Source: Actinomycetes bacterium (lineage in GTDB: Bacteria > Actinomycetota > Acidimicrobiia > Acidimicrobiales > GCA-2861595). From it: a DNA stretch of 32,246 bases. The stretch covers positions 1 to 32,246 of the forward strand of contig JAHFUS010000045.1 in assembly GCA_023264975.1 (NCBI GenBank), given 5' to 3'. The translations under genes and the position numbers were made by a program. The stretch's first letter is position 1; each line of letters opens with the position of its first letter. Below are positions 658-19,539 of the stretch, piece by piece. The notes beneath the pieces are model-generated. The model was not told where the DNA came from. It saw nothing but the letters and a program-made list of their open reading frames with translations, and did not search any database.

Positions 658-692
658 TCCCCGACGAGCAGACCGTCTGGTAGGCATCGGGG

Positions 693-3115: not shown

Positions 3116-3122
3116 CCGAATT

Positions 3123-3161: not shown

Positions 3162-4624
3162 GGAACGGTGAAGGTGCGGAGGAGTTCCAGCAGGGTCCGG
3201 ACGCCGACGCCCGTGCCGCCCTTGGCCAAGAAACCGTCGTCATCGCCGGCGCGCGCAGGACCGGCGATGTCGAGGTGGGCCCAAGGAACGTCGCCTACGA
3301 ACTCGCGCAGGAACAGCCCGGCCACCACCGTGCCCGCTTCACCCGCCCGGCCGATGTTCTTGATGTCGGCCACATCCGAGTCGATGTGGCAGCGGTAGTC
3401 GGCGGTGAGGGGCAGCGGCCACGAGGGCTCGCCGGCCCGGTCCCCGGCGGCGCGCACCTGGGCGAGGAACCCGTCGTCGGTGCCCATGAGCCCGCACACC
3501 TTGCGGCCGAGGGCGACGACCTGGGCGCCCGTGAGCGTGGCCAGGTCGATCATGGCGGCGGGAGCCTTCTCCGCCCCGTACGCGAGGGCATCGGCCAGCA
3601 CCAGCCGCCCCTCGGCGTCGGTGTTGAGCACCTCGACGGTGGTGCCGTTCCGGGTCGTGAGGACGTCGCCAGGCTTGATGGCCCTGTCGCCCGGCATGTT
3701 CTCGGTGATCGGCAGCAGGCCGACCACGCGCACAGCGGGCGCCAGCGCGGGCACGGCCGACATGGCGCCGAGCACGGCCGCCGCCCCCGACATGTCGGTC
3801 TTCATGGTCATCATCCCGTCGGCCGTCTTCAACGACAGCCCGCCGGAGTCGAACGTGATGCCCTTGCCCACCAGCACCACGGTGGGCACCGCGCCATCCC
3901 CCGGGGGCTCGTAGGTCAACTCCACGAACCGGGGCGGCTCGGCCGAGCCACGCGCCACCCCGAGCACACCGCCGAAGCGCTGTTCGACGATGGCCACCTC
4001 GTCGAAGATGCGGCAGCCCAGGCCCACCCTTGTCGACTCGGCCTCGGCCCGCTCGGCCAGGCGCGTCGGCGTGAGGACGCCCGCCGGCTCGTTCACCAGA
4101 TCGCGGGCCAGGCACACGGCGCCGGCCACCTCGGCACCCCACACAACTGCCGCCTCCAGCGCCTCGGCATCGGGAGCGACGATCACGACACTCGCGATGC
4201 GGCACGCCTTGGGCGACGAGCGGTAGGTGGTGAAGCGGTAGGCGGCGAGGGCAGCGCCCTCCACCAGGGCCTGGGCGGCGGCGGCCCGGTCCACGCCGTC
4301 GGGCACGGCGTCGAGGAGCCGCAGGGCCAGCGCCTTGACCCGCCAGGCGGAACGCACGGCGCAGGCCGCGGCGCGGCGCAGCCTGTCGACGGTGACCTCA
4401 GCCGGCTCGCCCATGCCGACCGCCAGCACCACCTGTCCGTCCCCGCCCACGAGCGTCTGCACCTGGCCGAACGTCGCCTCGAAGCCGAGGGCGGCCAGGA
4501 TCGAGGCGTCCAACGGCAGCGGCCACGGTGCCCCGGCCAGCGCCTCGAGGCCCGTGAACACGGGCACGACCACGACGCCGCCGGCGGGCGCGCCGGTGGC
4601 GGCGCTGAAGGTGATCGGGGTCAT
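3155..4624 (-). CDS. pepA: Leucyl aminopeptidase (M17 family)
   Basis: A 489-residue dizinc exopeptidase of the M17 family that removes N-terminal residues from peptides in the cytosol. The C-terminal catalytic domain shows the metal and active-site signature NTDAEGRLVLADAL (about residues 330-343), the Lys/Asp segment VGKGITFDSGGLSLK, and MKTDMSGAAAVLGAM. The N-terminal half is the variable regulatory domain. The ATG at 4624-4622 is chosen because it overlaps the adenosyltransferase stop by four bases (ATGA), a common coupling arrangement; the open frame further upstream is only overlap with that gene. The last four residues (TVPE) and the stop codon are encoded by the palindromic repeat and its flank, so the repeat may have reset the 3' end of this gene. 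Confidence 0.95.
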   Translation of the reverse strand: MTPITFSAATGAPAGGVVVVPVFTGLEALAGAPWPLPLDASILAALGFEATFGQVQTLVGGDGQVVLAVGMGEPAEVTVDRLRRAAACAVRSAWRVKALALRLLDAVPDGVDRAAAAQALVEGAALAAYRFTTYRSSPKACRIASVVIVAPDAEALEAAVVWGAEVAGAVCLARDLVNEPAGVLTPTRLAERAEAESTRVGLGCRIFDEVAIVEQRFGGVLGVARGSAEPPRFVELTYEPPGDGAVPTVVLVGKGITFDSGGLSLKTADGMMTMKTDMSGAAAVLGAMSAVPALAPAVRVVGLLPITENMPGDRAIKPGDVLTTRNGTTVEVLNTDAEGRLVLADALAYGAEKAPAAMIDLATLTGAQVVALGRKVCGLMGTDDGFLAQVRAAGDRAGEPSWPLPLTADYRCHIDSDVADIKNIGRAGEAGTVVAGLFLREFVGDVPWAHLDIAGPARAGDDDGFLAKGGTGVGVRTLLELLRTFTVPE

Positions 4625-5193
4625 CGGGCGTCCCTGTCGTCGTGGTCGTGGTCGTGTGCGGCGGGGCGGGTGTAGAGGGACTCGGCCTCCTGGCTGCGGG
4701 CCAGTGTCCACAGCAGGTCGGACAGGCGGTTCAGGTAGGGAACGACCTGCGAGCCCTCCGCCACCACGTCGAGCGACAGGCGCTCGGCTCGGCGCACCAC
4801 CGTGCGGGCCACGTCGAGGAGCGCTGCTGTCCGGCCCTGACCGGGAACCACGAAGTCGGCCGGCATGGTGAAGCCCGCGCCCACCTCGTCGATGCGCACC
4901 TCCAGGGCGGACACCATGGCCGCCGTCACCAGGGTGCGGCCCTCCTCCAGCTTGTGGCGGTTGGCGTGATCGGTCGCCAGATCGGCCATCAGCACCCAAA
5001 GCTCACGCTCCAGGTCAATGAGGGCCGAGTCGAGAGGCGAGCCGGGCGCTGTCTCCGCCCTGGCCAACCCGAGGAAGGCCTGGGCCTCGTCGACCGTGCC
5101 GTAGGCCTCCACCGCCGGCGCGTCCTTGCGCAGCCGGCCCCCGAGGTACAGGCCCGTCGTGCCGTCGTCGCCCCGCCGGGTGTAGATCCGCAT
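4621..5193 (-). CDS. Cob(I)alamin adenosyltransferase, PduO type
   Basis: A 190-residue ATP:cob(I)alamin adenosyltransferase of the PduO/MmaB type, which transfers the 5'-deoxyadenosyl group of ATP to cob(I)alamin to make adenosylcobalamin. Signatures are the N-terminal YTRRGDDGTTGLYLGGR ATP-binding segment, AYGTVDEAQAFLGLAR, and VPYLNRLSDLLWTLAR near the C-terminus. The protein ends in a His/Asp-rich tail (AAHDHDHDDRDAR), which could bind a metal; I do not regard that tail as typical of the family. The gene is first in a two-gene minus-strand unit with pepA. It points away from metH, the cobalamin-dependent methionine synthase, 336 bases upstream. MetH uses methylcobalamin, so the shared theme is cobalamin, not a single pathway step. 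Confidence 0.93.
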   Translation of the reverse strand: MRIYTRRGDDGTTGLYLGGRLRKDAPAVEAYGTVDEAQAFLGLARAETAPGSPLDSALIDLERELWVLMADLATDHANRHKLEEGRTLVTAAMVSALEVRIDEVGAGFTMPADFVVPGQGRTAALLDVARTVVRRAERLSLDVVAEGSQVVPYLNRLSDLLWTLARSQEAESLYTRPAAHDHDHDDRDAR

Positions 5194-5205
5194 GGGGTCC
5201 GGACA

Positions 5206-5489
5206 CTACCGGCGCCGGTTGGGGACCGGCTCCCACCCCGCGGCGACCGCCTTCTCCATGTACGCGCTCGTCCGACTGTCCAGGTCCGTGACGGAGACCT
5301 CAAAGGTCTCCCGCCGGACGATGCCGGTTGCGTCGGCTGCGAACTCGACGGTCGCACCGAGGCGTAGGAATCGAGCGCCCCCGCCACAACCGAGAGCACG
5401 GCCATCAGGGCCGCCGCCCTGGAGTGCCCCGCAGACGGGCGCCGCCGAGGGGCCCCGCATCGGACGTCGTAACGAACGCCGTGTTCCAC
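5206..5489 (-). pseudogene. Small membrane-anchored hypothetical protein, frameshifted
   Basis: Coding signature is present but changes frame. From GTG 5489 the first frame gives a basic N-terminus and a hydrophobic segment (AALMAVLSVVAGA). From about 5378 downward a second frame carries the signature, with residues LGATVEFAADATGIV to the stop at 5206-5208. The switch coincides with a run of five C at 5378-5382 (G on the coding strand). One added base there would give a continuous protein of about 94 residues with one membrane anchor and a short outer domain. The gene lies between the adenosyltransferase and metH. I recognise no family. A sequencing or assembly indel is as likely as real inactivation. 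Confidence 0.45.
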
Positions 5490-5529
5490 GCGATGGGGAG
5501 TCCTCCAATTCGCAGAGGGGGCCTCACAG

Positions 5530-8500
5530 GTGGCCGGTAGCCTGTGCCGCGTGGCGCCCAGGAACTATCTCGACGCGGTCCGCGAGCGCGTCGTCATCTT
5601 CGACGGCGCCACCGGCACCAACATCCAGCTGCGGGACCTGACAGCCGACGACTTCGGCGGGCCGGCGCTGGAGGGCTGCAACGAGGTGCTGGTCGACACA
5701 CGCCCGGACGTGATCGCCGACCTCCACCGCTCGTTCTTCGAGGTCGGCGTCGACGTGGTGGAGACCGACACCTTCGGCGCCTTCGGCCCCGTGCTGGCGG
5801 AGTACGGCCTGGCCGACCGGGTCCACGAGCTCAACCTGAAGGCGGTGCGCATCGCCCGCGAGGTGGCCGATGGCTATGGCGGCTTCGTGGCTGGTTCCAT
5901 CGGGCCGGGCACCAAATTCCCGTCCCTCGGCCAGATCCGCTTCGTCGACCTGCGCGACGCCTACGAGGCGCAGGTCACCGCCCTCCTCGAAGGCGGCGTC
6001 GACCTCATCGTCATCGAGACGGTGTTCGACCTCCTCCAGGCCAAGATCGCCATGATCGCCAGCCGCCGGGCCATGGGCGCCGCCGGCCGCCACGTGCCGA
6101 TCCAGGTCCAGGTCACCATGGAGCTAACCGGGCGCATGCTGCCGGGCACCGAGATCGGCGCCGCCCTCACCACCCTCGAAGCCCTGCGCCCCGACGTCAT
6201 CGGCCTTAACTGCGCCACCGGTCCCCAGGAGATGAGCGAGCACCTGCGCCACCTGTCGCAGCACGCCCGCACGCCCATCTCGTGCATCCCCAACGCCGGC
6301 CTGCCGTCGGTGGTGGACGGAAAGATGCACTACGACCTCACGCCCGATCAGCTGGCCGACTACCAGGCCCGGTTCGTCACCGAACTCGGCGTGTCGGTCA
6401 TCGGCGGGTGCTGCGGCACCACGCCCGACCACCTGCGCGCCGTGGTGGAGCGCTGCCGCGACCTCACGCCGGCGGCCCGCCCGGCGCGCAGCGACCCGGG
6501 CGTCGCGTCGCTCTACAGCCACGTGCCCTACGACCAGTCGCCGTCGTTCCTCGTGGTCGGCGAGCGCACAAATGCCAACGGGTCCAGGAAGTTCCGCGAG
6601 GCCATGCTGGCCAGCGACTGGGAGACCTGCGTGGGCATGGCCAAGGACCAGGTGCGCGAAGGCGCCCACGTCCTCGACCTCTGCGTCGACTACACGGGTG
6701 AGGACGGCGTGTCCGACATGGACGAGCTGGCGTCGCGCTTCGCCACCCAGGCCACCCTGCCCCTGATGCTCGACTCCACCGAGCCCGAGGTCATCGAGAC
6801 GGGCCTGCAATGGATCGGCGGCAAGCCGCTGCTCAACTCGGTGAACCTGGAGGACGGCGACGCGCCCGGCACCCGCCTCGACCGCTTCCTCACCCTGGCG
6901 CGGGAATACGGCGCTGCGGTCGTGTGCACCTGCATCGACACCGACGGCCAGGCCCGCACGGCCGACTGGAAGTTCCGGGCCGCCAAAGCCATCCACGACC
7001 TGGCCGTCGATCGCTACGGCATCGACCCGACAGACCTGTTCTTCGACGCCCTCGCGCTGCCCCTGTCCACCGGCATGGAGGAGAGCCGCAAGGACGGCAT
7101 CGAGACCATCGAGGGCATCCGCCGCATAAAGACCGAGCTGCCCGGCGTGCGCACGATCCTCGGCCTCTCCAATGTGTCGTTCGGCCTCACGCCGGCCGCC
7201 CGCCACGTGCTGAACTCGGTTTTCCTCCACGAGTGCCAGCAGGCCGGCCTCGACGCGGCCATCGTGCACGCGGCGCGCATCATGCCGCTCAACAAGATCG
7301 ACGAGCGCGCCCTCGAGGTGTGCCTCGACCTCATCTACGACCGCCGCCGTCCCGGCTACGACCCGCTCCAGGTGCTGCTGGGCCTGTTCGAGGGCGTCTC
7401 CTCGGCGTCATTGGTGAAGGAGGACCGCAGCGACTGGCCGATCGAGAGGCGGCTGTCGCAGCGCATCATCGACGGCGACCGCGAGGGCATCGAGGCCGAC
7501 CTCGACGAGGCGCTCGCCACCACGCCGGCGCTGGCCATCGTCAACGACACCCTCCTGGCGGGCATGAAGGTCGTGGGCGACCTGTTCGGCTCGGGCCAGA
7601 TGCAACTGCCATTCGTCCTCCAGTCGGCCGAGACCATGAAGACGGCCGTGGCCCACCTCGAGCCCCACATGGAGAAGAGCGACCAGGGCGGCAAGGGGCG
7701 CATCGTGCTGGCCACGGTGAAGGGCGACGTCCACGACATCGGCAAGAACCTGGTCGACATCATCTTCTCGAACAACGGCTACGAGGTGCACAACCTCGGT
7801 ATCAAGGTGGCCGTCACCGAGATGGTGGAGAAGGCCTTGGAGGTGGGCGCCGACGCCATCGGCATGAGCGGCCTGCTGGTAAAGAGCACGCTGATCATGC
7901 GTGAGAACCTCCAGGAGCTCAACGACCGCGGACTGGCCCACATCCCGGTGGTGCTGGGCGGCGCCGCGTTGACGAGGCGCTACGTGGAGCACGACCTGCG
8001 GGGCGTCTACGATGGCCGGGTCTTCTACGGCAAGGACGCCTTCGAGGGCCTGCGCACCATGGACAAGCTCATGGACCTGAAGCGCTCCGGCGCCGAGGAC
8101 CCCGACTACGGCCGGCTGCAATCGGGTCGGGCCAAGCCGGAGCCGGCGGGCGACGACGCCCGGGCCGTGCCCGTGCCGGCCCGGTCGCCATCGGTCGCCA
8201 CCGACAACGAGGTGTTCAAGCCACCTTTCCTCGGCTCACGCGTCGTGAAGGGCCTGGCCGTCGACGAGATCGCCGGCTGGATCAACGAGACCGCCCTGTT
8301 CCGCAACCAGTGGCAGTTCCGGCCCGAGAAGGGCGGCGCGGAGACGGACGAGGCGTTCAAGGAGCGCATCCGGCCGATCCTGCGCGACCAGCTCTCCACC
8401 GCCAAGACCCAGGGCCTGTTGGTGCCACAGCTGGTGTACGGCTATTTCGCGGCCAACGCCGACGGCGAGGACATCGTGGTGTGGGAGGACGACACCCGGA

Positions 8501-9006
8501 CCACCGAAGAGGCCCGCTTCTCCTTCCCCCGCCAGCAGAAGGAGCCCTGGCTCGACATCGCCGACTTCGTGCGGCCCCTCGGTTCGGAGCCCGACTACGT
8601 CGCCTTCTCGATCGTGACCATGGGCGCCACCGTTTCCGAGGCGACCGCCGCGCTCTTCGCCGAGAACCGCTACCAGGAGTACCTGCTCCTGCACGGCCTG
8701 GGCGTCGAGATGGCCGAGGCACTGGCCGAGCTGTGGCACCGCCGCATGCGCGAGGAGTGGGGCTTCGCCGACGAGGACGGCCCCACCCTCACCGGGCTGT
8801 TCCGCCAGCAGTACCGGGGCGGCCGCTACTCCTGGGGCTACCCAGCCTGCCCCGACCTCACCGACAACGTCGCCGTCGCCCGCCTGCTGGACGCGTCGAG
8901 CATCGGGGTCGAGGTGAGCGAGGAGACGGCGTTCCAGTACCACCCGGAGCAGACCACGTCGGCCATCGTGCTCCACCACCCGCAGGCCAAGTACTTCATC
9001 GCCTGA
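5530..9006 (+). CDS. metH: Cobalamin-dependent methionine synthase
   Basis: A 1158-residue cytosolic enzyme that transfers the methyl group of 5-methyltetrahydrofolate to homocysteine through cobalamin. All four modules are present. The homocysteine domain (about 1-320) carries zinc-ligand cysteines at 228 (GLNCATGP) and 294-295 (GGCCGTTPDHL). The pterin-binding domain follows (about 335-610, VVGERTNANGSRKF). The cobalamin domain (about 640-875) has the cobalt-ligand motif GDVHDIGKN with His735. The C-terminal activation domain (about 915-1158) has YSWGYPACPDL and FQYHPEQTTSA. A Pro/Ala-rich linker lies before the activation domain. GTG 5530 is chosen because an AGAGGGGG Shine-Dalgarno-like run lies about nine bases upstream; GTG 5551 is an alternative. 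I see no cobalamin or SAM riboswitch in the leader. Confidence 0.97.
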   Translation: MAGSLCRVAPRNYLDAVRERVVIFDGATGTNIQLRDLTADDFGGPALEGCNEVLVDTRPDVIADLHRSFFEVGVDVVETDTFGAFGPVLAEYGLADRVHELNLKAVRIAREVADGYGGFVAGSIGPGTKFPSLGQIRFVDLRDAYEAQVTALLEGGVDLIVIETVFDLLQAKIAMIASRRAMGAAGRHVPIQVQVTMELTGRMLPGTEIGAALTTLEALRPDVIGLNCATGPQEMSEHLRHLSQHARTPISCIPNAGLPSVVDGKMHYDLTPDQLADYQARFVTELGVSVIGGCCGTTPDHLRAVVERCRDLTPAARPARSDPGVASLYSHVPYDQSPSFLVVGERTNANGSRKFREAMLASDWETCVGMAKDQVREGAHVLDLCVDYTGEDGVSDMDELASRFATQATLPLMLDSTEPEVIETGLQWIGGKPLLNSVNLEDGDAPGTRLDRFLTLAREYGAAVVCTCIDTDGQARTADWKFRAAKAIHDLAVDRYGIDPTDLFFDALALPLSTGMEESRKDGIETIEGIRRIKTELPGVRTILGLSNVSFGLTPAARHVLNSVFLHECQQAGLDAAIVHAARIMPLNKIDERALEVCLDLIYDRRRPGYDPLQVLLGLFEGVSSASLVKEDRSDWPIERRLSQRIIDGDREGIEADLDEALATTPALAIVNDTLLAGMKVVGDLFGSGQMQLPFVLQSAETMKTAVAHLEPHMEKSDQGGKGRIVLATVKGDVHDIGKNLVDIIFSNNGYEVHNLGIKVAVTEMVEKALEVGADAIGMSGLLVKSTLIMRENLQELNDRGLAHIPVVLGGAALTRRYVEHDLRGVYDGRVFYGKDAFEGLRTMDKLMDLKRSGAEDPDYGRLQSGRAKPEPAGDDARAVPVPARSPSVATDNEVFKPPFLGSRVVKGLAVDEIAGWINETALFRNQWQFRPEKGGAETDEAFKERIRPILRDQLSTAKTQGLLVPQLVYGYFAANADGEDIVVWEDDTRTTEEARFSFPRQQKEPWLDIADFVRPLGSEPDYVAFSIVTMGATVSEATAALFAENRYQEYLLLHGLGVEMAEALAELWHRRMREEWGFADEDGPTLTGLFRQQYRGGRYSWGYPACPDLTDNVAVARLLDASSIGVEVSEETAFQYHPEQTTSAIVLHHPQAKYFIA

Positions 9007-9100
9007 CGACGGGTGGCCGGTCACCACTGCCGGCGGGTGGTGTGGTGGCGGGTGGCGGCATCGGTCACCGGCTGGGCGGCGACGGGGGGTTTCCCTACAT

Positions 9101-9118
9101 GGCGCCTTCGGAGGTGCC
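9101..9118 (+). other. Small hairpin in leader of PNAG-synthase-like genes
   Basis: GGCGCC and GGTGCC can pair around the loop TTCGGA, 13 bases before the start codon of the next gene. The stem covers the only purine-rich GGAGG in this leader (9110-9114), so folding could hide a ribosome site, although the spacing from GGAGG to ATG 9131 is long (16 bases). The rest of 9007-9100 is GC-rich, and I see no recognisable riboswitch core in it. Confidence 0.3.
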
Positions 9119-9130
9119 GAAGCTCACCAG

Positions 9131-9481
9131 ATGCGAACGAAGCTCGGCGTCACCCTCGGCGCGGCCCTCGGTTGGCCGGGGCTCGCCTGGTGCTGGTGGA
9201 AGGTCGTCGTCGACGGCCACGCGCCGACCGCCTCCATGATCGCCGTCCCTGTGCTGGTGGCTGCGCTGACGGCCGTCATCACGACATGGTGGGTGCGCCA
9301 CAACCTCGCCATCTACCGCCGCAAGGGCCCGCGAGGGGCCGGGCCCGCCTCCTCCAAGCCCTATCTCACGGACCGGCGGGCCCGGCCGCTGCGCTACGAC
9401 CCCACCAGGGCCCGCACGGCCCGCGAGATCGTCGTCCGGGTCACGGCCGAGGGCGACAAGCGCTACGAGGTCGTGTCGTGA
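9131..9481 (+). CDS. Small two-helix membrane protein, PgaD/IcaD-like position
   Basis: A 116-residue protein with two predicted membrane helices (about 7-24 and 35-57: LGAALGWPGLAWCWW and AVPVLVAALTAVITTWW), followed by a basic cytosolic tail beginning HNLAIYRRKGPRG. Its size, topology and coupling to a PgaC-like glycosyltransferase match the accessory subunits PgaD/IcaD of poly-beta-1,6-N-acetylglucosamine synthases, which stabilise or activate the synthase. It ends in GTGA, overlapping the start of the glycosyltransferase by four bases. In the E. coli pga operon pgaD follows pgaC; here the small gene comes first. Assignment rests on context and topology, not on clear sequence identity. Confidence 0.65.
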   Translation: MRTKLGVTLGAALGWPGLAWCWWKVVVDGHAPTASMIAVPVLVAALTAVITTWWVRHNLAIYRRKGPRGAGPASSKPYLTDRRARPLRYDPTRARTAREIVVRVTAEGDKRYEVVS

Positions 9482-10788
9482 CGGGCATCCTCGAGTCGGT
9501 TGCCGCCAGCCCGGTCCTCGGCATCGCCCTGGCCTTCCTCGCCCTCTATCCCGTCGTCATGGCCGTGGTCTGGGTAGTCACCTCGGTGATGTACGCCCTC
9601 CGGCGAGAGGTGAGCGACGACGGTTCGTTCGCGGCCATCCCCGATGAAGACCTCCTGTCGGTGTCGATCATCGTCCCGGCCTACGAGGAGGAGGTCGTCC
9701 TCGACGCCACGCTCGAGGCGCTGCACCACCTCGACTACCCGGACTACGAGGTCATGGTGGTCGACGACGCGTCGGGGGACCGAACGTCGGAGATCGCGCG
9801 CGGCCACCTGGCGAGCGACGGGCGCTTCCGTCTCCTGCGCAAGGAGGTCAACGAGGGCAAGGCCATGGCCATGAACGACGCAATGGCGCTCACCCGTGGC
9901 GAGGTCGTCGTCATCGTGGACGCCGACGCCCGGCTCCACCCCGGCGCCCTGCGGCCCATCGTGGCCCACTTCGTGCGGCTGCCCCGTGTGGGTGCCGTCA
10001 CGGGCAACCCCCGCGTCACCAACCGCCTGAACCTCCTCACTGAGCTGCAGACGCTCGAGTTCACCTCCATCGTCTCGATCCTCCGCCGGGCCCAGGTGGT
10101 GTGGGGCCGCATCCTGACGGTGTCGGGCGTCATCAGCGCATTCCGCCGCACCGCCCTGGAGGACGTGGGCTTGTTCGACCCGTCGATGGCCACCGAGGAC
10201 ATCGACGTGTCCTGGCGCCTCCAGCGGCGCTTCTACGACGTCCGCTACGAGCCCCGGGCTCTCATCGACATGACAGTGCCGGCTACGTGGAAGGCGCTCT
10301 GGCGCCAGCGACGCCGCTGGTCCATGGGGCTGGTGCAGGTGCTGCGCCGGCACCGCGTCGTGCTGGCCCACTGGAGGAACCGCCGCCACTGGCCCGTGTT
10401 CGTGGAAACGTGCCTGTCGGTGCTATGGGCCCACGTCTTCGTCGCCCTGCTCGGCTTCTGGGCCCTGAGCGCGCTGAGCGGCATTCCCACCCGCGGCGCC
10501 TCGCCGTTCCCGAACGGCTGGGGCATGCTCATCGCCACGCTGTGCCTCGCCCAGCTCGCCACCGGCGTCTGGCTCGACCGCCGGTACGACCGCTCCGTCG
10601 TCCGGGCGCTCCTCGTGGCGCCGCTGTACCCGCTCGGGTACTGGCTGTTCTCGTCGCTGGTCACGGTTCGCTCGACACTTCCCGAACTGCTACGCCGGCA
10701 GCGAAGCGAGGTCTCGCAGTGGCACACCGTCCGGGAGCCCGCACCGGAGGCCACCCGGCCCGCCGCCCCACGCTCGGCGGCTGCATAG
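9478..10788 (+). CDS. Family 2 glycosyltransferase, PgaC/IcaA-like
   Basis: A 436-residue membrane glycosyltransferase of the processive GT2 group. It has an N-terminal membrane helix (about 10-37), a GT-A catalytic domain and three or four C-terminal helices (about 305-400). Catalytic marks are VSIIVPAYEEE, the VVDDASGD aspartates, the DxD motif in VIVDADARL (about 146-154), the acceptor-site ATEDIDVSWRL (about 238-248), and QRRRWSMG, the QxxRW motif. The closest type is poly-N-acetylglucosamine synthase (PgaC/IcaA), which polymerises UDP-GlcNAc at the inner membrane face and extrudes the chain. Hyaluronan or cellulose synthase-like function is less likely but not excluded. The GTG start overlaps the stop of the small membrane protein. 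No deacetylase (PgaB/IcaB) or export gene is adjacent. Confidence 0.85.
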   Translation: MTGILESVAASPVLGIALAFLALYPVVMAVVWVVTSVMYALRREVSDDGSFAAIPDEDLLSVSIIVPAYEEEVVLDATLEALHHLDYPDYEVMVVDDASGDRTSEIARGHLASDGRFRLLRKEVNEGKAMAMNDAMALTRGEVVVIVDADARLHPGALRPIVAHFVRLPRVGAVTGNPRVTNRLNLLTELQTLEFTSIVSILRRAQVVWGRILTVSGVISAFRRTALEDVGLFDPSMATEDIDVSWRLQRRFYDVRYEPRALIDMTVPATWKALWRQRRRWSMGLVQVLRRHRVVLAHWRNRRHWPVFVETCLSVLWAHVFVALLGFWALSALSGIPTRGASPFPNGWGMLIATLCLAQLATGVWLDRRYDRSVVRALLVAPLYPLGYWLFSSLVTVRSTLPELLRRQRSEVSQWHTVREPAPEATRPAAPRSAAA

Positions 10789-10815
10789 CCGGCTGACGGA
10801 ACGCAGAATCTGCGA

Positions 10816-10868
10816 TTGACGTTGGTTTGATGTTGACTTTTGGAGCATGATCCAACATACTTCGATAC
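10816..10868 (+). promoter_or_regulatory. Leaderless promoter and possible operator of the fructose PTS operon
   Basis: An A/T-rich island in GC-rich DNA. TTGACT (10833-10838) and CATACT (10856-10861) are spaced by exactly 17 bases and resemble -35 and -10 boxes; transcription would then begin almost at ATG 10869, giving a leaderless mRNA. A second TTGACG sits at 10816-10821. Possible operator elements are the near-palindrome TGGAGCATGATCCA (10841-10854) between the boxes, and the pair ATGTTG / CAACAT (10830-10835 and 10853-10858). Any of these could bind the DeoR-family regulator encoded just downstream. Confidence 0.6.
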
Positions 10869-11633
10869 ATGGACGCAGAGGATCGCCGCGACCTGATCGC
10901 CGAGGAGCTGCGTCGGCGGGGCCGGGTCTCGGTCCGCAACCTGGCCGCCGCCCATGATGTCACCCCCGAGACGGTGCGCCGCGACCTCATCGAGTTGGAG
11001 GAGCGGGGCGAGCTGCGCCGGGTCCACGGCGGCGCCGTCGCCCTCGAGCGGGCGCTGGTCGAGTCCGCGGTAGCCGAGCGGTCCGGGCACATGGCGGCCG
11101 ACAAGGCCCGCATCGCAGCGGCGGCCGTGGCCCACTTCCCGGCCGACGGCGGCACCGTCCTCGTCGACGCCGGCACCACCACGGGCGCCCTGCTCCACGT
11201 CTTCCCCACCGACCGCCGCCTCACCGTCGTCACCAACGACGTCTCCCACGCCCTGGCCCTGGCCCCGATCCCCACCGTCACCGTGATCGTGGTGGGCGGG
11301 CGGCTCCGGGCCCGCACCCTGGCCAACGTCGACGATTTCGCGGTGGAGACGCTGCGCAACCTCCGCGTCGACGTCGCCTTCATCGCCACCAACGGCGTCT
11401 CCGAGCGGGGCTGCTCCACGCCCGACACGGCGGAGGCGGCCGTGAAGCGGGCCATGGTCGGCGCCGCCGACCGGGTCGTGCTCCTGGCCGACCACACCAA
11501 GTTCGGCGACGAGCACTTCGTGCGCTTCGCCGACCTGTCCGACCTCGACGCCGTCGTCACCGACAGCCGCACCGAGGACGCCGACCTCCTCCCACTGCGC
11601 CTGGCCGGCCTGGACGTGGTCGTGGCGCCGTGA
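10869..11633 (+). CDS. DeoR-family transcriptional regulator of fructose operon
   Basis: A 254-residue DeoR/GlpR-family regulator. The N-terminal helix-turn-helix (about 1-58) reads RRDLIAEELRRRGRVSVRNL, then VTPETVRRDLIELEERGEL, and the sugar-phosphate-binding domain carries VLVDAGTTTGALL and TVVTNDVSHALAL. DeoR proteins beside fructose PTS genes usually repress them and are relieved by a fructose phosphate; here that is inferred from position as the first gene of the operon. No Shine-Dalgarno sequence precedes ATG 10869, in keeping with a leaderless transcript. Its stop overlaps the next start by four bases (GTGA), so the regulator is made together with the genes it would control, implying autoregulation. 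Confidence 0.92.
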   Translation: MDAEDRRDLIAEELRRRGRVSVRNLAAAHDVTPETVRRDLIELEERGELRRVHGGAVALERALVESAVAERSGHMAADKARIAAAAVAHFPADGGTVLVDAGTTTGALLHVFPTDRRLTVVTNDVSHALALAPIPTVTVIVVGGRLRARTLANVDDFAVETLRNLRVDVAFIATNGVSERGCSTPDTAEAAVKRAMVGAADRVVLLADHTKFGDEHFVRFADLSDLDAVVTDSRTEDADLLPLRLAGLDVVVAP

Positions 11634-13150
11634 GCGGGCCGGGAGGATGGTCCGGCCACGAGCCTGTCATCGTCACCGTCACCCCCAACCCGTCGGTGGA
11701 CCGCACCCTCGAGGTCGAGCGGGTCGAGCGGGGCGCCGTCATCCGGGCGTCGTCCACGCGCATCGACGCCGGCGGCAAGGGCGTCAACGTCACCCGGGCC
11801 CTCGTGGCCAACGGGTTTGCATCCGTCGCCGTGCTGCCCCTCGGAGGCGGCGACGGCGACGTGCTCTCGCGGTTGCTGGTCGACGGCGGGATCCCCCACC
11901 GGCCCGTCCCGACCAGCGCCGGGACCAGGTCGAACATCACTCTGAGCGAGCCCGATGGCACCGTCACCAAGGTGAACGCCCCGGGTGCGCCGCTCGACCG
12001 GGCCGAGATGGTCGCCCTGGTCGACGAGGCCGTCGCCAACCTCGGCGCCGCCAGCTGGCTGGTGCTGTGCGGCTCGCTGCCCGCCGGCGCCCCTGTCGAC
12101 CTCTATGCCACTCTCACCATACGTGCCCGCGCCGCCGGCGTGCGGGTGGCGGTGGACTCCAGCGGCGCCCCCCTCGCCGCATCCATCGCCGCCGGCCCCG
12201 ACCTCATCAAGCCCAACCTGGCCGAACTGGCCGAGCTGGTCGACCGCCCCCTCGACGGAATAGACGACGCCGTGGCGGCGGCCGAGGAGGTCCGCGCCGC
12301 CGGCGTGGGCACCGTCGTCGTCTCCCTCGGCGCACGCGGCGCACTGCTCGTGGACGGCGGCGACCCTGTGCTGGCCGTGCCCCCCGCCGTCGCCGCCCGC
12401 AGCGACGTGGGCGCCGGCGACACGCTGCTCGCCGGCTTCCTGGCGGCCGGCGGCGCCGGCGCCGCGGCCCTCCGTACGGGCGTCGCCTGGGCCGCAGCGG
12501 CCGTCGCCCTGCCCGGCACCGAGATGCCGGGCCCGGCCGACATCCACCTCGCCGACGTCACCCTCGGCCCCGCCGTCCCGCAACGCCCCGCCGTCCCGCC
12601 CGACCCCGCCGCCCCGCTCCGCCCCGCCCTTTCGAACCCACCCCATCCCGTCCCGGCCACCGGCCCGCAAACCCCGATCGGAGAACCCATGACATTCGCC
12701 GTCGACGATCTCGTCACCACCGACCTCGTCGCCCTCGACCTGGCCACAACTGACCGCCGGTCCACCATCGAGGCCCTGGCCGACCTCCTCGTCGCCGCCG
12801 GCCGCCTCACCGACCGGACCGGCTTCGTGGAGGCGGTCTGGGCCCGGGAACAGGAGACCGGCGGCACCGGCATGGAGTCCGGCATCGCCATCCCCCACGC
12901 CAAGCACGCCGGCGTCACGCAACCCAGCGTGGTGGTGGCCACCGTGCCGGGCGGGGTCGACTTCGGCGCCGAGGACGCCCCCGCCGACCTCGTCTTCCTG
13001 ATCGCGGCGCCGGCCGGCGCCGACGACGTCCACATCACCGTCCTGTCCAAGCTGGCCCGCCGCCTCGTCCACGAGTCGTTCCGCAACGCCCTCCGCCAGG
13101 CCCCCAACGCCGAAGCGGTCGTCCTGATCCTGAAGGAGCAGATCCAGTGA
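11630..13150 (+). CDS. Fused 1-phosphofructokinase and PTS fructose EIIA
   Basis: A 506-residue fusion. Residues 1 to about 312 are a PfkB-type 1-phosphofructokinase (FruK): TVTPNPSVDRTLEVE, DAGGKGVNVTRAL, and the catalytic-base loop DVGAGDTLLAGF. Residues 354-506 are a fructose-type EIIA domain with phosphorylatable His423 in SGIAIPHAKHAGV. They are joined by a Pro/Ala-rich linker of about 40 residues (about 314-353). The kinase makes fructose 1,6-bisphosphate from the fructose 1-phosphate delivered by the transporter; EIIA passes phosphate from HPr to EIIB. An in-frame ATG at 12689, preceded by GGAGA (12680-12684), lies exactly at the start of the EIIA domain, so a free EIIA may also be made. 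GTG 11630 overlaps the regulator stop. Confidence 0.93.
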   Translation: MSGPGGWSGHEPVIVTVTPNPSVDRTLEVERVERGAVIRASSTRIDAGGKGVNVTRALVANGFASVAVLPLGGGDGDVLSRLLVDGGIPHRPVPTSAGTRSNITLSEPDGTVTKVNAPGAPLDRAEMVALVDEAVANLGAASWLVLCGSLPAGAPVDLYATLTIRARAAGVRVAVDSSGAPLAASIAAGPDLIKPNLAELAELVDRPLDGIDDAVAAAEEVRAAGVGTVVVSLGARGALLVDGGDPVLAVPPAVAARSDVGAGDTLLAGFLAAGGAGAAALRTGVAWAAAAVALPGTEMPGPADIHLADVTLGPAVPQRPAVPPDPAAPLRPALSNPPHPVPATGPQTPIGEPMTFAVDDLVTTDLVALDLATTDRRSTIEALADLLVAAGRLTDRTGFVEAVWAREQETGGTGMESGIAIPHAKHAGVTQPSVVVATVPGGVDFGAEDAPADLVFLIAAPAGADDVHITVLSKLARRLVHESFRNALRQAPNAEAVVLILKEQIQ

Positions 13151-14631
13151 GGCTCGTCGCCGTCACCGCATGTCCCACCGGCATCGCCCACAGCGCCATG
13201 GCCGCCGAGGCCCTCGAGGTGGCCGCCCGCGAGGCGGGCCACGAGATCGAGGTCGAGATCCAGGGAGCCGCCGGCGGCCCCGGCATCTCCGCAGCCACCA
13301 TCGCCGCTGCCGACGCCGTGATCTTCGCCGTCGACGCGGGGGTCCGGGACCGCAACCGCTTCGACGCCCTGCCGAGCGTCGAGGTCCGAACCCGCCGGGC
13401 CATCGACCGGCCGGGCGAAGTGATCAGCCAGATCGAGGAGGTCGCCCGCCAGGCACCGGCCCGCTCCGGCGCCGCCGCCTCCCCGATGACCGCCGCTGCG
13501 CCCGAGGGCGCGACCCCGACCGAGAAGTTCCGCATCTGGCTGATGACCGGCGTGAGCTACATGCTCCCGTTCGTCGTGGCCGGCGGCATCCTCATCGCCC
13601 TCGGCTTCGCCGTCGGCGGCGCGACCCGGGTCACCGGCGTGGAGGACTGGCCGACATTCGGCGACGTGTTCTCGTCCAAGCTCCTCCTCGGCGCCCTGCT
13701 GTTCAAGATCGGCGCCGTGGCGTTCAGCATGCTGGTACCGATCCTCGCCGGCTTCATCGCCTTCGGGATGGTGGACCGGCCCGGCATCGCCCCGGGCGTG
13801 GTCGCCGGCCTCATCGCCGTGCAGCTCAACGCCGGCTTCCTCGGCGGCATCGCCGGCGGCCTCCTGGCCGGCGCCGTCGTCATGCTCCTCATGCGCATCA
13901 AGGTGCGGGGGTCACTGTCCAAGATGATGCCGGTGATGGTGTACCCGATCTTGGGCACGCTCGTCACCGGGGCCCTGCTGGTGCTGGTGATCGGCAACCC
14001 GATCGCCTCCGCCCAGTCCGGCCTCACCAACTGGCTCACCGACCTCCAGGGCACCAACGCCGTGTTCCTCGGCCTGCTGATCGGCGCCATGATGGCCTTC
14101 GACATGGGCGGCCCGGTCAACAAGGCGGCCTACGCCTTCGGCCTCGCCTCGCTCGACTCGGGCAACTTCGCCGTGATGGCCGCGGTGATGATCGCCGGGA
14201 TGACGCCCCCGCTGGGGCTGGCCCTGGCCACCACCCTGCGCCCCAAGCGCTTCACCGAGCCGGAGCGGGAGTCGGGCAAGGCGGCCTGGCTGCTCGGCCT
14301 CTCCTTCATCACCGAGGGGGCCATCCCGTTCGCCGCAGGCGACCCGCTGCGGGTGATCCCGGCCCTGATGGCCGGCTCGGCCACCGCCGGCGCAATCTCC
14401 ATGGCCGTCGACGCCCAGCTGCGTGCACCCCACGGCGGGATCTTCGTGCTCGGCCTCATCGACGGCAAGATCGGCTTCCTGCTGGCAGGCCTCGCAGGGA
14501 CGGCCGTCACCGCCGGCCTGGTGGTGCTCCTCAAGTCGCTCGGCCGAGAGCCCGCCATCGACCTCACCGACGATGCCGGCGCCGCCGATCCCAAAGGGAA
14601 GGTCGGCCGCGCCGTGACCGCTCATGCGTAG
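13147..14631 (+). CDS. fruA: PTS fructose transporter subunit EIIBC
   Basis: A 494-residue membrane permease of the fructose/mannitol PTS family that imports fructose and phosphorylates it to fructose 1-phosphate. The N-terminal EIIB domain (about 1-100) has phosphorylatable Cys9 in VTACPTGIAHSAMAAEAL. A Pro/Ala linker (about 103-122) leads to an EIIC domain with about nine or ten hydrophobic segments, including VSYMLPFVVAGGILIALGF, FDMGGPVNKAAYAF and FITEGAIPFAAGDPLRVIPA. GTG 13147 is supported by AAGGAG (13133-13138) eight bases upstream, and it overlaps the fusion gene stop by four bases. The EIIA partner is encoded on the preceding fusion. Confidence 0.95.
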   Translation: MRLVAVTACPTGIAHSAMAAEALEVAAREAGHEIEVEIQGAAGGPGISAATIAAADAVIFAVDAGVRDRNRFDALPSVEVRTRRAIDRPGEVISQIEEVARQAPARSGAAASPMTAAAPEGATPTEKFRIWLMTGVSYMLPFVVAGGILIALGFAVGGATRVTGVEDWPTFGDVFSSKLLLGALLFKIGAVAFSMLVPILAGFIAFGMVDRPGIAPGVVAGLIAVQLNAGFLGGIAGGLLAGAVVMLLMRIKVRGSLSKMMPVMVYPILGTLVTGALLVLVIGNPIASAQSGLTNWLTDLQGTNAVFLGLLIGAMMAFDMGGPVNKAAYAFGLASLDSGNFAVMAAVMIAGMTPPLGLALATTLRPKRFTEPERESGKAAWLLGLSFITEGAIPFAAGDPLRVIPALMAGSATAGAISMAVDAQLRAPHGGIFVLGLIDGKIGFLLAGLAGTAVTAGLVVLLKSLGREPAIDLTDDAGAADPKGKVGRAVTAHA

Positions 14632-14902
14632 CCAGACCGTCACCCTCGCCAACCCGACCGGGCTGCACGCCCGCCCGGCCAAGGTCTTCGCCCAGGCCGT
14701 CTCGGCGAGCGGCCACCAGGTCCGCCTCACCAAGGGCGACACCACCGTGAACGCCCGCTCCGTCCTCTCGGTCCTCACGCTCGACTGCCACAACGGCGAC
14801 CAGATCACCATCGAGGTCGAGGGCGACGACGCCGACGGCGTGCTCGCGTCGCTCGTCAGCCTGGTGGAGTCGGGCCTCGGAGAGGGCGGAGCTCCGTCAT
14901 GA
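14624..14902 (+). CDS. ptsH: Phosphocarrier protein HPr
   Basis: A 92-residue HPr that carries phosphate from enzyme I to EIIA. The active-site His15 is in NPTGLHARPAKVF. Ser46 is also present (NARSVLSVL), the position phosphorylated by HPr kinase in Firmicutes; no HPr kinase is seen here, so whether Ser46 is used is unknown. The gene starts eight bases before the EIIBC stop and ends overlapping the EI start by four, so it is embedded in the operon. No clear ribosome site precedes it, which suggests translational coupling to EIIBC. Confidence 0.95.
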   Translation: MRSQTVTLANPTGLHARPAKVFAQAVSASGHQVRLTKGDTTVNARSVLSVLTLDCHNGDQITIEVEGDDADGVLASLVSLVESGLGEGGAPS

Positions 14903-16605
14903 GCGCCGAGCTGACCGGTATAGGTGCGGCGCCCGGCGTTGCCATCGGCCGGCCCTTCGTGGTGGAGCCGCCCGCAACCGAGGTGCCCGACCCCGGGCCG
15001 AGCGGCCCACCTGCCGCCGAGAAGGCCCGCCTGCACGCCGCGCTGGTGCAGGCGGCCGACGAGCTGCACGCCATGGCCGAGCGCATGAGGGCCGTGGCCG
15101 GCGAGGAGGCCGAGATCTTCGAGGCCCACGCCGCCTTTGCCACGGACCCCGAGGTCGAGGACCAGGCGGCGCCCCTCATCGACGCCGGCCGCTCGGCCGT
15201 GGCGGCCGTGTCCGCCGCCTTCGGCGCCTTCCGCGCACTGCTGGCGGCGTCGTCCAGCGAGTACATGGCCGCCCGCGCCGCAGACCTCGATGACGTGTGC
15301 GCCCGGGTGGTGGGCATCCTGTCGGGCGTGTCCCGCGGCTACGACCTGCCCGAAGGACGGTCGGTGCTGCTGGCCCGTGAGCTGACACCGTCGCAGACGG
15401 CCGAGATCCCCCGCGACCGCATCGCCGGCGTCGTCACCGAGACCGGGTCCCCCACCAGTCACGCGGCGATCCTGGCCCGCACCCTCGGCATCCCCGCCGT
15501 GGTGGGCGCGACCGGGGTGCTGGCCGTCGCCGCCGGCGCCTCGATCGTCGCCGTCGACGGGCGCACCGGCGAGGTGCACGTGGAGCCCGATGCCGACGTG
15601 CTGGCGGCATTGACGGCGCGGGCCGGCCAGGAGGAGGCCCGCCGGGTCGCGCTCGAGGCGGCGTCGCATGAGCCCGGTAGAACCGCCGACGGCGTGGCCG
15701 TCGAGCTGGTGGCCAACGTCGCCGGCCGCGACGACCTCGCCGCCGCGGTGGCGGCCGGGGCCGAGGGCGCCGGCCTGGTGCGCACCGAGCTGCTGTTCCA
15801 GGACCGGCGTACCGAGCCCTCGGTCGACGAGCAGGCGGCTTACTACGGCGAGGTGCTGGCCGCCTTCCCCGGCCGCCGTGTGGTGTTCCGCACCCTCGAC
15901 GTGGGCGCCGACAAGCCCCTGCCCTTCGTCGTCCGCGAGCCCGAGCCGAACCCGGCGCTCGGCGTGCGCGGCATCCGGCTCTCGCTGCGCCGGCCCAAGC
16001 TGTTCGAGGACCAGCTGCGTGCACTCGTGCGGGCGCACCGCGACCGGCCCGGAGGCGGGGTCACCGGCGTGATGTTCCCGTTGGTCAGCCGGGTCGACGA
16101 GGTGGTCGCCGCCCGCTCCGAGCTCGAGCGCGTGGCGGGCGACGAGGGCGTGTCGCTTGATGGCATCGAGGTCGGCGTGATGATCGAGGTGCCGTCGGCC
16201 GCCCTGGCCGCCGGCCGCATCGCCCCACACGTCGACTTCTTCTCGGTCGGCACCAACGATCTCCTCCAGTACCTGTTCGCGGTCGACCGCCTCGTGGCCG
16301 AGGTGGCCGAGCTCACCGACGTGTGCGAGCCGCTCGTGCTCGACCTCATCGCCCACGTGGTCGACAACGCCACGGCCCACGGCACCTGGGTCGGCGTGTG
16401 CGGCGAGACGGCCAGCGACCCCGAGGTCGCCGCCGCCCTCGTCGGCCTCGGCGTCCGGGAACTGTCGATGGTGCCCGGCGCCCTCGGCGAGGTGAAGGAC
16501 CTCCTACGCCGCCACGACCTGGCGTCGCTTACGACGGTGGCCGAGGACGCCCGCCACGCCGGCGACGCGGCCGAGGCCCGCGCCATCCTCGCCAAGCTCG
16601 CCTGA
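14899..16605 (+). CDS. ptsI: Phosphoenolpyruvate-protein phosphotransferase (enzyme I)
   Basis: A 568-residue cytosolic enzyme I that takes phosphate from phosphoenolpyruvate and hands it to HPr. The phosphohistidine domain carries His188 in GSPTSHAAILAR; the C-terminal PEP-binding barrel shows LVRTELLFQDR, LDVGADKPLPF, GVRGIRLSLRRPKLFEDQLRAL cut into shorter blocks, VGVMIEVPSA, FFSVGTNDLLQY, and the catalytic-cysteine region WVGVCGE. Length is normal. The start is supported by GGAG at 14888-14891 and overlaps the HPr stop as ATGA. It is the last gene of a five-gene operon that needs no other component for fructose uptake. Confidence 0.96.
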   Translation: MSAELTGIGAAPGVAIGRPFVVEPPATEVPDPGPSGPPAAEKARLHAALVQAADELHAMAERMRAVAGEEAEIFEAHAAFATDPEVEDQAAPLIDAGRSAVAAVSAAFGAFRALLAASSSEYMAARAADLDDVCARVVGILSGVSRGYDLPEGRSVLLARELTPSQTAEIPRDRIAGVVTETGSPTSHAAILARTLGIPAVVGATGVLAVAAGASIVAVDGRTGEVHVEPDADVLAALTARAGQEEARRVALEAASHEPGRTADGVAVELVANVAGRDDLAAAVAAGAEGAGLVRTELLFQDRRTEPSVDEQAAYYGEVLAAFPGRRVVFRTLDVGADKPLPFVVREPEPNPALGVRGIRLSLRRPKLFEDQLRALVRAHRDRPGGGVTGVMFPLVSRVDEVVAARSELERVAGDEGVSLDGIEVGVMIEVPSAALAAGRIAPHVDFFSVGTNDLLQYLFAVDRLVAEVAELTDVCEPLVLDLIAHVVDNATAHGTWVGVCGETASDPEVAAALVGLGVRELSMVPGALGEVKDLLRRHDLASLTTVAEDARHAGDAAEARAILAKLA

Positions 16606-16628
16606 CCGCGCCGCGCGGCCGGACGCAC

Positions 16629-16648
16629 GCCCGTTCTTTCGGACGGCG
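16629..16648 (+). terminator. Possible terminator hairpin after ptsI
   Basis: Just after the ptsI stop, CCGTTC (16631-16636) and GGACGG (16641-16646) pair around the loop TTTC with one G-T wobble; an alternative longer-loop fold pairs GCCCG with CGGGC. No U-tract follows. It is well placed to end the PTS transcript. The rest of 16649-16798 shows nothing decisive, apart from a 29-codon ORF at 16710-16799 whose stop overlaps the next start. Confidence 0.35.
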
Positions 16649-16798
16649 GGCATCGGCGGGGCGCGTTGCGGCGGCCGGAGAACGCTGGCGATGCGGCCAG
16701 ACTGACCGGATGCAGGCTCGGTACACCCCGACGTCCCGGTGGCGGACGTGGATGGGCGCAGAGCCTGGGTGGGCGAGCACCGGCGGTGCGGGGGCGTG

Positions 16799-17698
16799 AT
16801 GTCGCCTCGGGCCCTCGGCGTCGGGCTGGTCGCCGTGTCGGCGGCGTCGTTCGGGGCCATGGCGATCTTCGCCCGGCTGGCCTACGAAGGCGGGGCCGAC
16901 ATCACCGCCGTACTGTTCCTGCGCTTCGCCATCGCCACCCCGTGCATGGTCGTGCTGCTCCGTCTCCGCCGACAGCCGTGGCCCCGGGGACGGGTCCTCG
17001 CCGGTCTGATCGCCATGGGTGGCGTCGGCTACGTGGGCCAGTCGTTGTCGTACTTCACCGCGTTGACCCTGGCGTCGGCCAGCCTGGTCGCCCTGCTGCT
17101 CTACGCCTACCCGGCCATCGTCACCGTGCTGTCCGCCGTGCTCCTCGGCGTCCGCCTCACCCCGGTTCGCATCGCAGCGCTGGTGCTGGCGCTCGCCGGT
17201 AACGCCCTCATCGTCGGCCCGGAGCTGACGGGGCGGCCCTTGGGCGTGGCCCTCGGGGCAGCCGCGGCGGTCATCTACTCCGTCTACATCCTGGCCGGCA
17301 GCCGCCTCACCCCACTGGCCGGCGCCCTGCCGTCGGCCGCCGTGGTGATGGCCTCGGCTGCGGCCGTCTACACGGTCGTGGCGCTGGTGCAGCGGCCGTC
17401 GTTCCCGTCGACGGGCCGAAGCTGGGCGGCCGTCGCGGCCATCGCCCTCGTGTCCACGGTGCTCGCGATCACGACCTTCTTCGCGGGCATGGAGCGCCTC
17501 GGCGCGACCGACGCCTCGACGTTGTCGACCATCGAACCGGTGGTGACCGTGGTCCTCGCCTGGGCCGTCCTCGACGAACGGCTGTCGGGTGCCCAGGTCG
17601 CCGGCGGTGTGCTCGTCCTCACCGCCGTGGTCGTGCTGGCGCGGTCGAGGTCGCCCCTCGACGCGCCGCCCCGCGACGCGCCGGCCGGGCCACCGTAA
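16799..17698 (+). CDS. EamA-family (DMT superfamily) transporter
   Basis: A 299-residue inner-membrane protein with ten hydrophobic segments arranged as two EamA repeats of five. Examples are LVAVSAASFGAMAIFARLAY at the start, SASLVALLLYAYPAIVTVLS closing repeat one, and ATDASTLSTIEPVVTVVLAW in repeat two, the typical conserved helix of the family. Members export metabolites or amino acids; the substrate cannot be read from sequence. ATG 16799 is chosen since it opens directly into the first helix; GTG 16796 just before it is also in frame. The short C-terminal tail is Pro/Ala-rich. The PIG-L gene downstream continues in the same frame after this stop codon. Confidence 0.88.
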   Translation: MSPRALGVGLVAVSAASFGAMAIFARLAYEGGADITAVLFLRFAIATPCMVVLLRLRRQPWPRGRVLAGLIAMGGVGYVGQSLSYFTALTLASASLVALLLYAYPAIVTVLSAVLLGVRLTPVRIAALVLALAGNALIVGPELTGRPLGVALGAAAAVIYSVYILAGSRLTPLAGALPSAAVVMASAAAVYTVVALVQRPSFPSTGRSWAAVAAIALVSTVLAITTFFAGMERLGATDASTLSTIEPVVTVVLAWAVLDERLSGAQVAGGVLVLTAVVVLARSRSPLDAPPRDAPAGPP

Positions 17699-17791
17699 CA
17701 GTGCGACCGGGCGGGACCTGCCGCCCGACCTCAGCGGGCTGCGAACGTCGTCGCCACCGACCTCGTAGCTGGTCGAGGGGCAGACTGTGGA

Positions 17792-18553
17792 ATCGCCGTC
17801 ATCGTCTTCTTCCACGCGCACCCCGATGACGAGGCCATCTTCACGGGCGGCACCGTGCTCCGTCTGGTCGCCCTCGGGCACCGGGTCACGCTCGTCGTCG
17901 CCACCAGCGGCGAGCTCGGTATCCCACACCCCGAAGGTTCCACCGAGCAGCTGGCCCACGTGCGCCGGCAGGAGACCCGCCGGGCCGCTGCGTTGCTGGG
18001 GGTCTCGCGGGTCGACTTCCTCGGGTATCCGGACTCGGGCCTGGCGGGCGACGCAGCCAACGCGACGCCCGGGGCTTTCGCGTCGGTCGACGTCGATGAG
18101 GTCGCGACGCGCCTGGCCGCCCTGCTGGTCGAGGAGCGGGCCGATGCCATCGTGGTGTACGACGAGACCGGGATCTACGGCCATCCCGACCATGTCCAGG
18201 TACACCGGGCCGGCCACCGGGCGGCGGCGCTGGCCGGCGTGGCGACCGTCTACGAGGTCACCATCGACCGCGAGTACCTCCATTTCGTGGAGACCCACCT
18301 GGTCGAGGAGGCGATCCTCGCTGGGGATCTCGGCCTCGCCCGTTCCCACATCGGCGTGCCGACGGTCATGCTGACGGCGACCGTCGACGTGACGGCGCAG
18401 CTGGACCGGAAGCGGTCGGCGATGGCGGCGCACGCCAGCCAGATCCCCGAGACCACGTCTGCGCTGCAACTGGGATTGGAGCAGTTCGCGGCTGTCTACG
18501 GCTGGGAATGGTTCATGCGTCACGGCCCTCCCGGCCCCATCGACGACCTGTGA
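17792..18553 (+). CDS. PIG-L family deacetylase, no canonical start codon
   Basis: A roughly 253-residue zinc-dependent N-acetyl-sugar deacetylase of the PIG-L/LmbE family, whose members include MshB and BshB-type enzymes of thiol biosynthesis. The substrate here is unknown. The metal-binding AHPDDE motif is encoded at 17816-17833 and the second motif GHPDH near 18179. The first ATG/GTG/TTG in this frame is GTG 17855, after AHPDDE, so starting there would remove essential metal ligands. Between the in-frame EamA stop (17698) and 17855 no usual start exists. The natural N-terminus would be ATC 17792 (then AVIVFFHAHPDDE), preceded by GAGGGG at 17775-17780. Either ATC is used, or a base was lost next to GTG 17787, which is out of frame by one. 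Confidence 0.85.
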   Translation: MAVIVFFHAHPDDEAIFTGGTVLRLVALGHRVTLVVATSGELGIPHPEGSTEQLAHVRRQETRRAAALLGVSRVDFLGYPDSGLAGDAANATPGAFASVDVDEVATRLAALLVEERADAIVVYDETGIYGHPDHVQVHRAGHRAAALAGVATVYEVTIDREYLHFVETHLVEEAILAGDLGLARSHIGVPTVMLTATVDVTAQLDRKRSAMAAHASQIPETTSALQLGLEQFAAVYGWEWFMRHGPPGPIDDL

Positions 18554-18560
18554 CTGCAAT

Positions 18561-18582
18561 GGGTCGGGCGGCCGGCCGACCC
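18561..18582. terminator. GC-rich hairpin between convergent genes
   Basis: GGGTCGG (18561-18567) and CCGACCC (18576-18582) form a perfect seven-base stem around an eight-base loop, eight bases after the PIG-L stop and before the convergent membrane-protein gene. There is no U-tract, but the site and symmetry fit a bidirectional terminator. Nothing else recognisable was seen in 18583-18681. Confidence 0.5.
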
Positions 18583-18681
18583 CTCCGGGCACCACTGGGA
18601 GGTCGGTCGGCGAGTCGGTGGCGGACCGTTCCTGCTTCTTTGAGCTCGCTCGATGAGTGCAATCGAACGAAGTTTCCCGGA

Positions 18682-19539
18682 TCAGCCCGACGACAACACG
18701 GCCCGGGCCACCAGGTCGGTGCCGAAGGCGGTCAGGATGGCGAGGTAGAGCAGGCCGGTGGCCGCCATCACGGCCGAGTACGCCCGCTCCTTGAGAGCAG
18801 CCTTGGTCACGCCGGTCAGGATCAGCGTCGACACTGCACAGGTGGCCCAGAACCAGCCCAGCAGCCCGCCGTAGCCGTCGTCGATGGTGCCCGAGAAGAC
18901 CGAGAACATGCCGGTGGGCCAGAGGAGGGCGGCCACCTCGAGCGGCCACACCAGGGCGAGCCACCGGTTCAGCTCGAGCAGGGGCGCCCGGCCCAGCCCG
19001 GGCTGCACCAGGTACCAGTGGCCGAGCAGCATGGCGTCGGTGACGGCGCCGAGGAAAGCGGCGCCCACCAGCGTGCGCGCCACGGCAAGCACGTCGGGGC
19101 CGCCGGCGGCGATGCCGGCGGCCACCAGGCCCACGGCGCCGATGACGGGCGCGACAAGGTCGGCCACCGGCGGGAACTCGGGGACACTGGCATCGGGCCC
19201 CGACGGCTCCCGCTCGATCCCGGTCATCGCCGCCACCCGGGCCGTGCGTCGTGCGTGGCGGGCCCGCTCCCCCGCCACACCGGCCCGCCGCCGGACGATC
19301 GACAGGACGAGGGCGGCGCCGCTGGTCAGCGCCACCAGTGCCGCGCTCGCGTCACGCACCGGCACCGGTCCGAACACCCGACCCACGACCGCCGCCCCGG
19401 CTGCCATCACCATGTAGGTGGCGCGCAGCAGCCAGCCGTAGCCGATGCCGACCTGGCGCCGCCGGGTCGTCACCCACAGGAACAGCAGTCCCCCGGTCGC
19501 CCACTGGAGCAGCACCGTGGCCGCGTCCAGGCGGATCAT
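18682..19539 (-). CDS. Polytopic membrane protein of unknown function
   Basis: A 285-residue protein with about eight predicted membrane helices: three in the first 80 residues, a basic cytosolic loop of about 45 residues rich in Arg, then five more. Notable is the conserved-looking segment TDAMLLGHWYLVQPGLGR in the middle, with His, Trp and Tyr near a membrane face; such residues could bind a cofactor, but this is speculation. I do not recognise a named family. ATG 19539 is chosen because it opens directly into the first helix (TVLLQWATGGLLFLW). The frame stays open far upstream, but that part is low-complexity and not protein-like. The gene faces the same way as the lipoamide operon, 205 bases downstream of the SDR gene. 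Confidence 0.8.
   Translation of the reverse strand: MIRLDAATVLLQWATGGLLFLWVTTRRRQVGIGYGWLLRATYMVMAAGAAVVGRVFGPVPVRDASAALVALTSGAALVLSIVRRRAGVAGERARHARRTARVAAMTGIEREPSGPDASVPEFPPVADLVAPVIGAVGLVAAGIAAGGPDVLAVARTLVGAAFLGAVTDAMLLGHWYLVQPGLGRAPLLELNRWLALVWPLEVAALLWPTGMFSVFSGTIDDGYGGLLGWFWATCAVSTLILTGVTKAALKERAYSAVMAATGLLYLAILTAFGTDLVARAVLSSG

Follow-up and report, generated by a model that had tools for sequence, protein, structure and literature searches.

A fused fruK-EIIA gene in a fructose PTS operon, with a candidate internal EIIA start aligned to the separate genes of relatives

In the window, by which we mean the whole stretch of DNA analysed here (32,246 nucleotides), fruK and the EIIA gene of a fructose PTS operon are joined in a single reading frame. 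Our favoured reading, to which we give a probability of roughly two in three, is that of a lineage-specific fusion with a kept EIIA start, so that the gene most likely makes FruK-EIIA together with some free EIIA. The fused open reading frame (ORF; 11630–13150, forward strand, as are all features below) runs from a GTG start to a TGA stop and encodes 506 amino acids with no internal stop. Domain profile matches place PfkB at residues 22–298 (E 4e-44) and PTS_EIIA_2 at residues 361–503 (E 2e-31) in one frame that is open throughout, which upholds the FruK-EIIA fusion proposed by the first-pass annotation. The FruK (1-phosphofructokinase) part (11666–12574) aligns to residues 1–303 of a separate FruK of 310 residues in G003, a genome of the same family and the closest relative holding the operon. 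Residues 14–306 score 293.8 bits against the cut-off of 292 of the equivalog TIGR03828, which identifies this part as FruK, and the sequence contains the GAGD motif. The EIIA part scores 109.4 bits with PF00359 (cut-off 27) and 106.5 bits with TIGR00848 (cut-off 103.5), the latter identifying it as a fructose EIIA. This domain, 153 residues in length (12689–13150), carries the conserved IPH histidine, which all 15 of the EIIAs in an alignment share and which we take to be the phosphorylatable residue. A whole-genome search with PF00359 found one EIIA domain, that of the fused ORF.

The operon consists of a deoR-type regulator, the fused gene, EIIBC, HPr and Enzyme I. The DeoR-family regulator (10869–11633) overlaps the fruK start by GTGA, and fructose EIIBC (13147–14631) overlaps the EIIA stop by GTGA; HPr (14624–14902) and Enzyme I (PtsI; 14899–16605) were assigned by profile matches. 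Across 10869–16605 the remaining junctions are GTGA at 11630, GTGA at 13147, 8 nt at 14624 and ATGA at 14899. Since every one of these overlaps start and stop, a stop-start overlap is missing from the operon only where fruK and EIIA are fused.

Comparison with related genomes shows the two domains to be encoded separately in the relatives examined. In G003, fruK ends at a TGA that is followed by a 20-nt spacer with GGGAGACCCC-ATG, and EIIA lies in another frame; its start aligns residue for residue with ATG 12689 of the window. Positions 1–19200 of the window are largely collinear with G003 contig 88 around the PTS operon. Presence of the operon is patchy, however: a search of G001, a genome of the same genus, with the fused protein gave nothing at E 0.001, and Enzyme I matches in G001 are partial only, with identity of at most 46%. 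We collected distinct and adjacent fruK-EIIA junctions, defined as loci with FruK followed by EIIA, from the order, phylum, class, relatives and genome-contig searches, leaving out duplicate junctions and 27 fetched loci lacking an adjacent pair. The genes are separate in 84 of the resulting 85 junctions and the sole fusion is the window's own, although a handful of genera (Saccharopolyspora, Pseudonocardia, Actinomycetospora and Microbacterium) account for many of the 84, which are therefore not 84 independent cases. A GGAG-containing site precedes the chosen EIIA start in 75/84 separate junctions, a figure that represents an upper view because the start-choice rule prefers SD-bearing starts (SD, Shine-Dalgarno); by the same rule three of the 84 have no start near the stop. 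An NTGA start/stop overlap is present in 43/84. In six of the separate junctions (L100, L101, L104, L114, L118 and L121) EIIA is already in frame with fruK and is separated from it by a stop, so that loss of this stop would give the same fusion.

No second FruK-EIIA fusion was found among 59 relatives, 397 genomes of the order (searched by EIIA), 395 genomes of the class, 396 genomes of the phylum (with loci retrieved for the best matches alone) or 68 genome-contig loci. Among the phylum matches listed that span both domains, all eight besides the window's own hold at least one stop. In plasmids, no hit to the fused gene reached 80% query coverage.

The border between the two domains has the sequence features of a gene start. 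The GGAGA and the in-frame ATG pointed out at the beginning of EIIA are both present, GGAGA at 12680–12684 and the ATG at 12689–12691 (codon 354 of the fused ORF). The former is Shine-Dalgarno-like in sequence, in alignment to relatives and in duplex energy, with its GGAG core 5 nt from the ATG; the latter is, by alignment, the counterpart of the EIIA gene start of relatives. An in-frame start codon with a ribosome site thus lies inside a longer ORF, as in a gene within a gene. Because the separate EIIA starts of relatives align with 12689, mostly with a GGAG-type site, the internal start looks ancestral. Energies calculated with ViennaRNA are close to those of 81 EIIA starts of relatives, both for the SD duplex (−6.6 kcal/mol vs a mean of −7.6, sd 2.0) and for the fold from −25 to +20 (−7.5 kcal/mol vs −7.7, sd 2.8), while the fold at random internal codons of the host genome averages −15.1 (sd 4.6; 289,436 bases sampled). 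The GGAG core is nevertheless of moderate strength, and the G003 EIIA site is stronger (−6.6 vs −8.6).

As a control, internal in-frame ATGs other than 12689 were taken from 155 genes crudely predicted with a simple GC-frame filter in 289 kb of the host genome, requiring GGAG at 4–10 nt and, for openness, a −25 to +20 fold of at least −7.5 kcal/mol, the site's own value. GGAG is found at 16 of these 547 ATGs (about 3%) and comparable openness at 23, and none combines the two. When GTG and TTG are counted along with ATG, the figures are 80/2487 with GGAG, 53/2487 as open and 0/2487 with both. By simple arithmetic, independence would predict about 0.7 (of 547) and about 1.7 (of 2487) sites with both features, so the zero counts are not striking alone and it is the rarity of the combination that counts. 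Within the fused ORF, 12689 is the only one of 26 ATG/GTG/TTG codons with a site of this kind. In a sample of crudely predicted starts of the host genome, 31 of 149 have such an SD, which makes the SD a limited guide to initiation in this genome. The mRNA structure over 12620–12760, considered as a special feature, was set aside (z 0.88, an unremarkable fold). From the start-like features of the site we infer that ribosomes may initiate at ATG 12689 at present.

The most serious alternative is a true fusion with an inert internal site, in which the cell would make FruK-EIIA alone and GGAGA-ATG would be a relic of the start that EIIA once had. We regard this as unlikely but worth serious attention. 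A single fused genome is known, so that selection for keeping the site cannot be shown, and in a recent fusion retention of the SD may simply reflect inertia. In addition, coupled reinitiation is lost when there is no nearby upstream stop; for two gene pairs of E. coli, an intergenic distance of 38 nt is reported to give 80–90% less downstream product (PMC10666635). Against an inert site stands the match of 12689 to real EIIA starts in both ribosome site strength and openness, a combination absent from the 547 other sampled internal ATGs.

The linker joining the domains is roughly 36–43 residues long and has a GC skew down to −0.46. Its description as Pro-rich is borne out by 15 prolines in the 43 residues 311–353, and its first half consists of an 18-bp in-frame tandem repeat (12567–12628 or slightly beyond; 3.5 copies, TRF score 83) encoding the units PAVPQR/PAVPPD/PAAPLR/PALSNP. 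Lag-18 identity of this segment is 0.82, compared with 0.51 after shuffling, and was reached by 0 of 5000 shuffles; since its repeats were the reason for choosing this segment, the statistic is a description rather than a test. A dispersed repeat element was rejected, the 14-base unit occurring five times in the genome with two of those here. Codon scores over 12569–12628 weakly favour the fused frame (0.02 vs −0.38 and −1.04), whereas over the second half (12629–12688), which holds the ribosome site, the three frames score alike (−0.53, −0.58 and −0.57) and none is preferred. For the full linker the fused-frame codon score lies above composition shuffles (P 0.025), and the lack of a stop is weak evidence alone, as 73% of composition shuffles are likewise stop-free. 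In an AlphaFold2 model built from a 29-row alignment, both domains are of high confidence and residues 328–352, with pLDDT below 50, are predicted to be disordered. The suggestion that the linker is intergenic DNA read through is therefore retained in part: the last 60 nt or so (12629–12688) look like a former non-coding spacer, but such an origin for the entire linker is rejected because expansion of the 18-bp repeat accounts for the first half. Most of the extra linker length is thus repeat expansion and not an inherited spacer; G003 has a spacer of 20 nt, and in many other relatives fruK and EIIA overlap.

A C-rich repeat at this place also raises the possibility of a sequence or assembly error, in which an indel or base error would hide the fruK stop and the genes would in fact be separate. 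Tandem repeats are prone to error, the host genome is a draft of 139 contigs and the separate state is found in 84 of 85 junctions. In frame +1, moreover, fruK would end at TGA 12690–12692, giving an ATGA overlap of a kind common in relatives; and since same-genus G001 has no match, there is no second copy of the gene to compare. However, an error in copy number would leave the frame intact, because the repeat unit is 18 bp, and the codon scores of the repeat favour the fused frame. Thirteen G003 genes that strongly match the window (fruK, EIIA and 11 others) each correspond to one unbroken frame, and only the fruK/EIIA junction differs between the two; a fourteenth is a match of 31%. We consider an error improbable. 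That GGAGA-ATG is a chance match within a GC-rich coding linker is scarcely credible: a suitably spaced GGAG does precede about 3% of internal ATGs, but the position aligns with the separate EIIA starts of relatives, the homologous start in G003 contradicts chance, and SD plus open structure recurs at none of the 547 other sites.

Under the favoured reading, a fusion with a kept EIIA start, the ancestor would have had fruK and EIIA adjacent, with the SD and ATG of EIIA at or just past the end of fruK. In the host lineage the fruK stop would then have been lost or shifted out of frame, and an 18-bp in-frame repeat would have grown between the genes. Together these two changes would have given a single frame whose linker is flexible and Pro-rich, while the old EIIA ribosome site was retained inside the joined gene. 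Ribosomes coming from fruK would read on and make FruK-EIIA, and some may load at 12689 to make a free EIIA of 153 residues. Among closely spaced gene pairs, the NTGA overlap seen in relatives is described as the most frequent arrangement and as falling within the range of efficient coupling (PMC12548453), and moving the stop away lowers reinitiation (PMC10666635). With termination-reinitiation coupling lost in the fusion, any free EIIA would have to come from direct initiation, and its share is for that reason probably below the ancestral level. We tentatively suggest that the fresh fusion may be a two-product gene, supplying kinase-tethered and free EIIA in a ratio set by the internal ribosome site.

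Actinobacterial fructose PTS operons (for example those of G003, Pseudonocardia and Saccharopolyspora) share the fruK-EIIA order and a correspondingly placed, SD-bearing EIIA start with the window, but their genes are separate, often with an NTGA overlap, where here there is one frame and a linker. A C-terminal part readable alone from an internal start is also described for Cas11b inside cas8b (PMC11899642) and RpnS inside rpn (PMC10327210). Initiation of both is reported there as experimentally shown, whereas that within fused fruK-EIIA is deduced from sequence; unlike these two, the nested product here would come from a gene that used to stand alone and has newly merged with the one beside it. 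FruB, as described in PMC2405797, likewise has IIA-Fru fused to proteins of the same pathway, but its partners are other phosphocarriers (HPr, sometimes EI) and here the partner is 1-phosphofructokinase. Fusions of IIA-Fru with PTS proteins and internal-start genes are thus already known, and what appears to be new is the FruK-EIIA pairing, seen in 1 of 85 junctions. We found no FruK-EIIA fusion in the literature surveyed by titles and abstract openings, and do not claim its absence from print. The separate genes of G003 and the fused gene of the host form a natural before/after pair for how operon neighbours turn into fusion proteins, and the pair also bears on whether retaining the start of the second gene serves to keep a free subunit available. 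It predicts that free EIIA can survive such a fusion, here from the sole PF00359 EIIA found in the genome. If the two-product reading is true, the gene would represent an intermediate state on the way from coupled operon genes to a complete fusion.

A minor observation concerns the other end of the gene. FruK of relatives opens with MIVTVTPNP, and in the window (11630–11680 region) the position matching this Met is GTC. The sole in-frame fruK start is GTG 11630, located 12 codons upstream of the GTC and overlapping the deoR stop; its ribosome site is weak (duplex −3.0, fold −22.7), and a GGGAGG-ATG at 11641–11649 lies out of the fruK frame.
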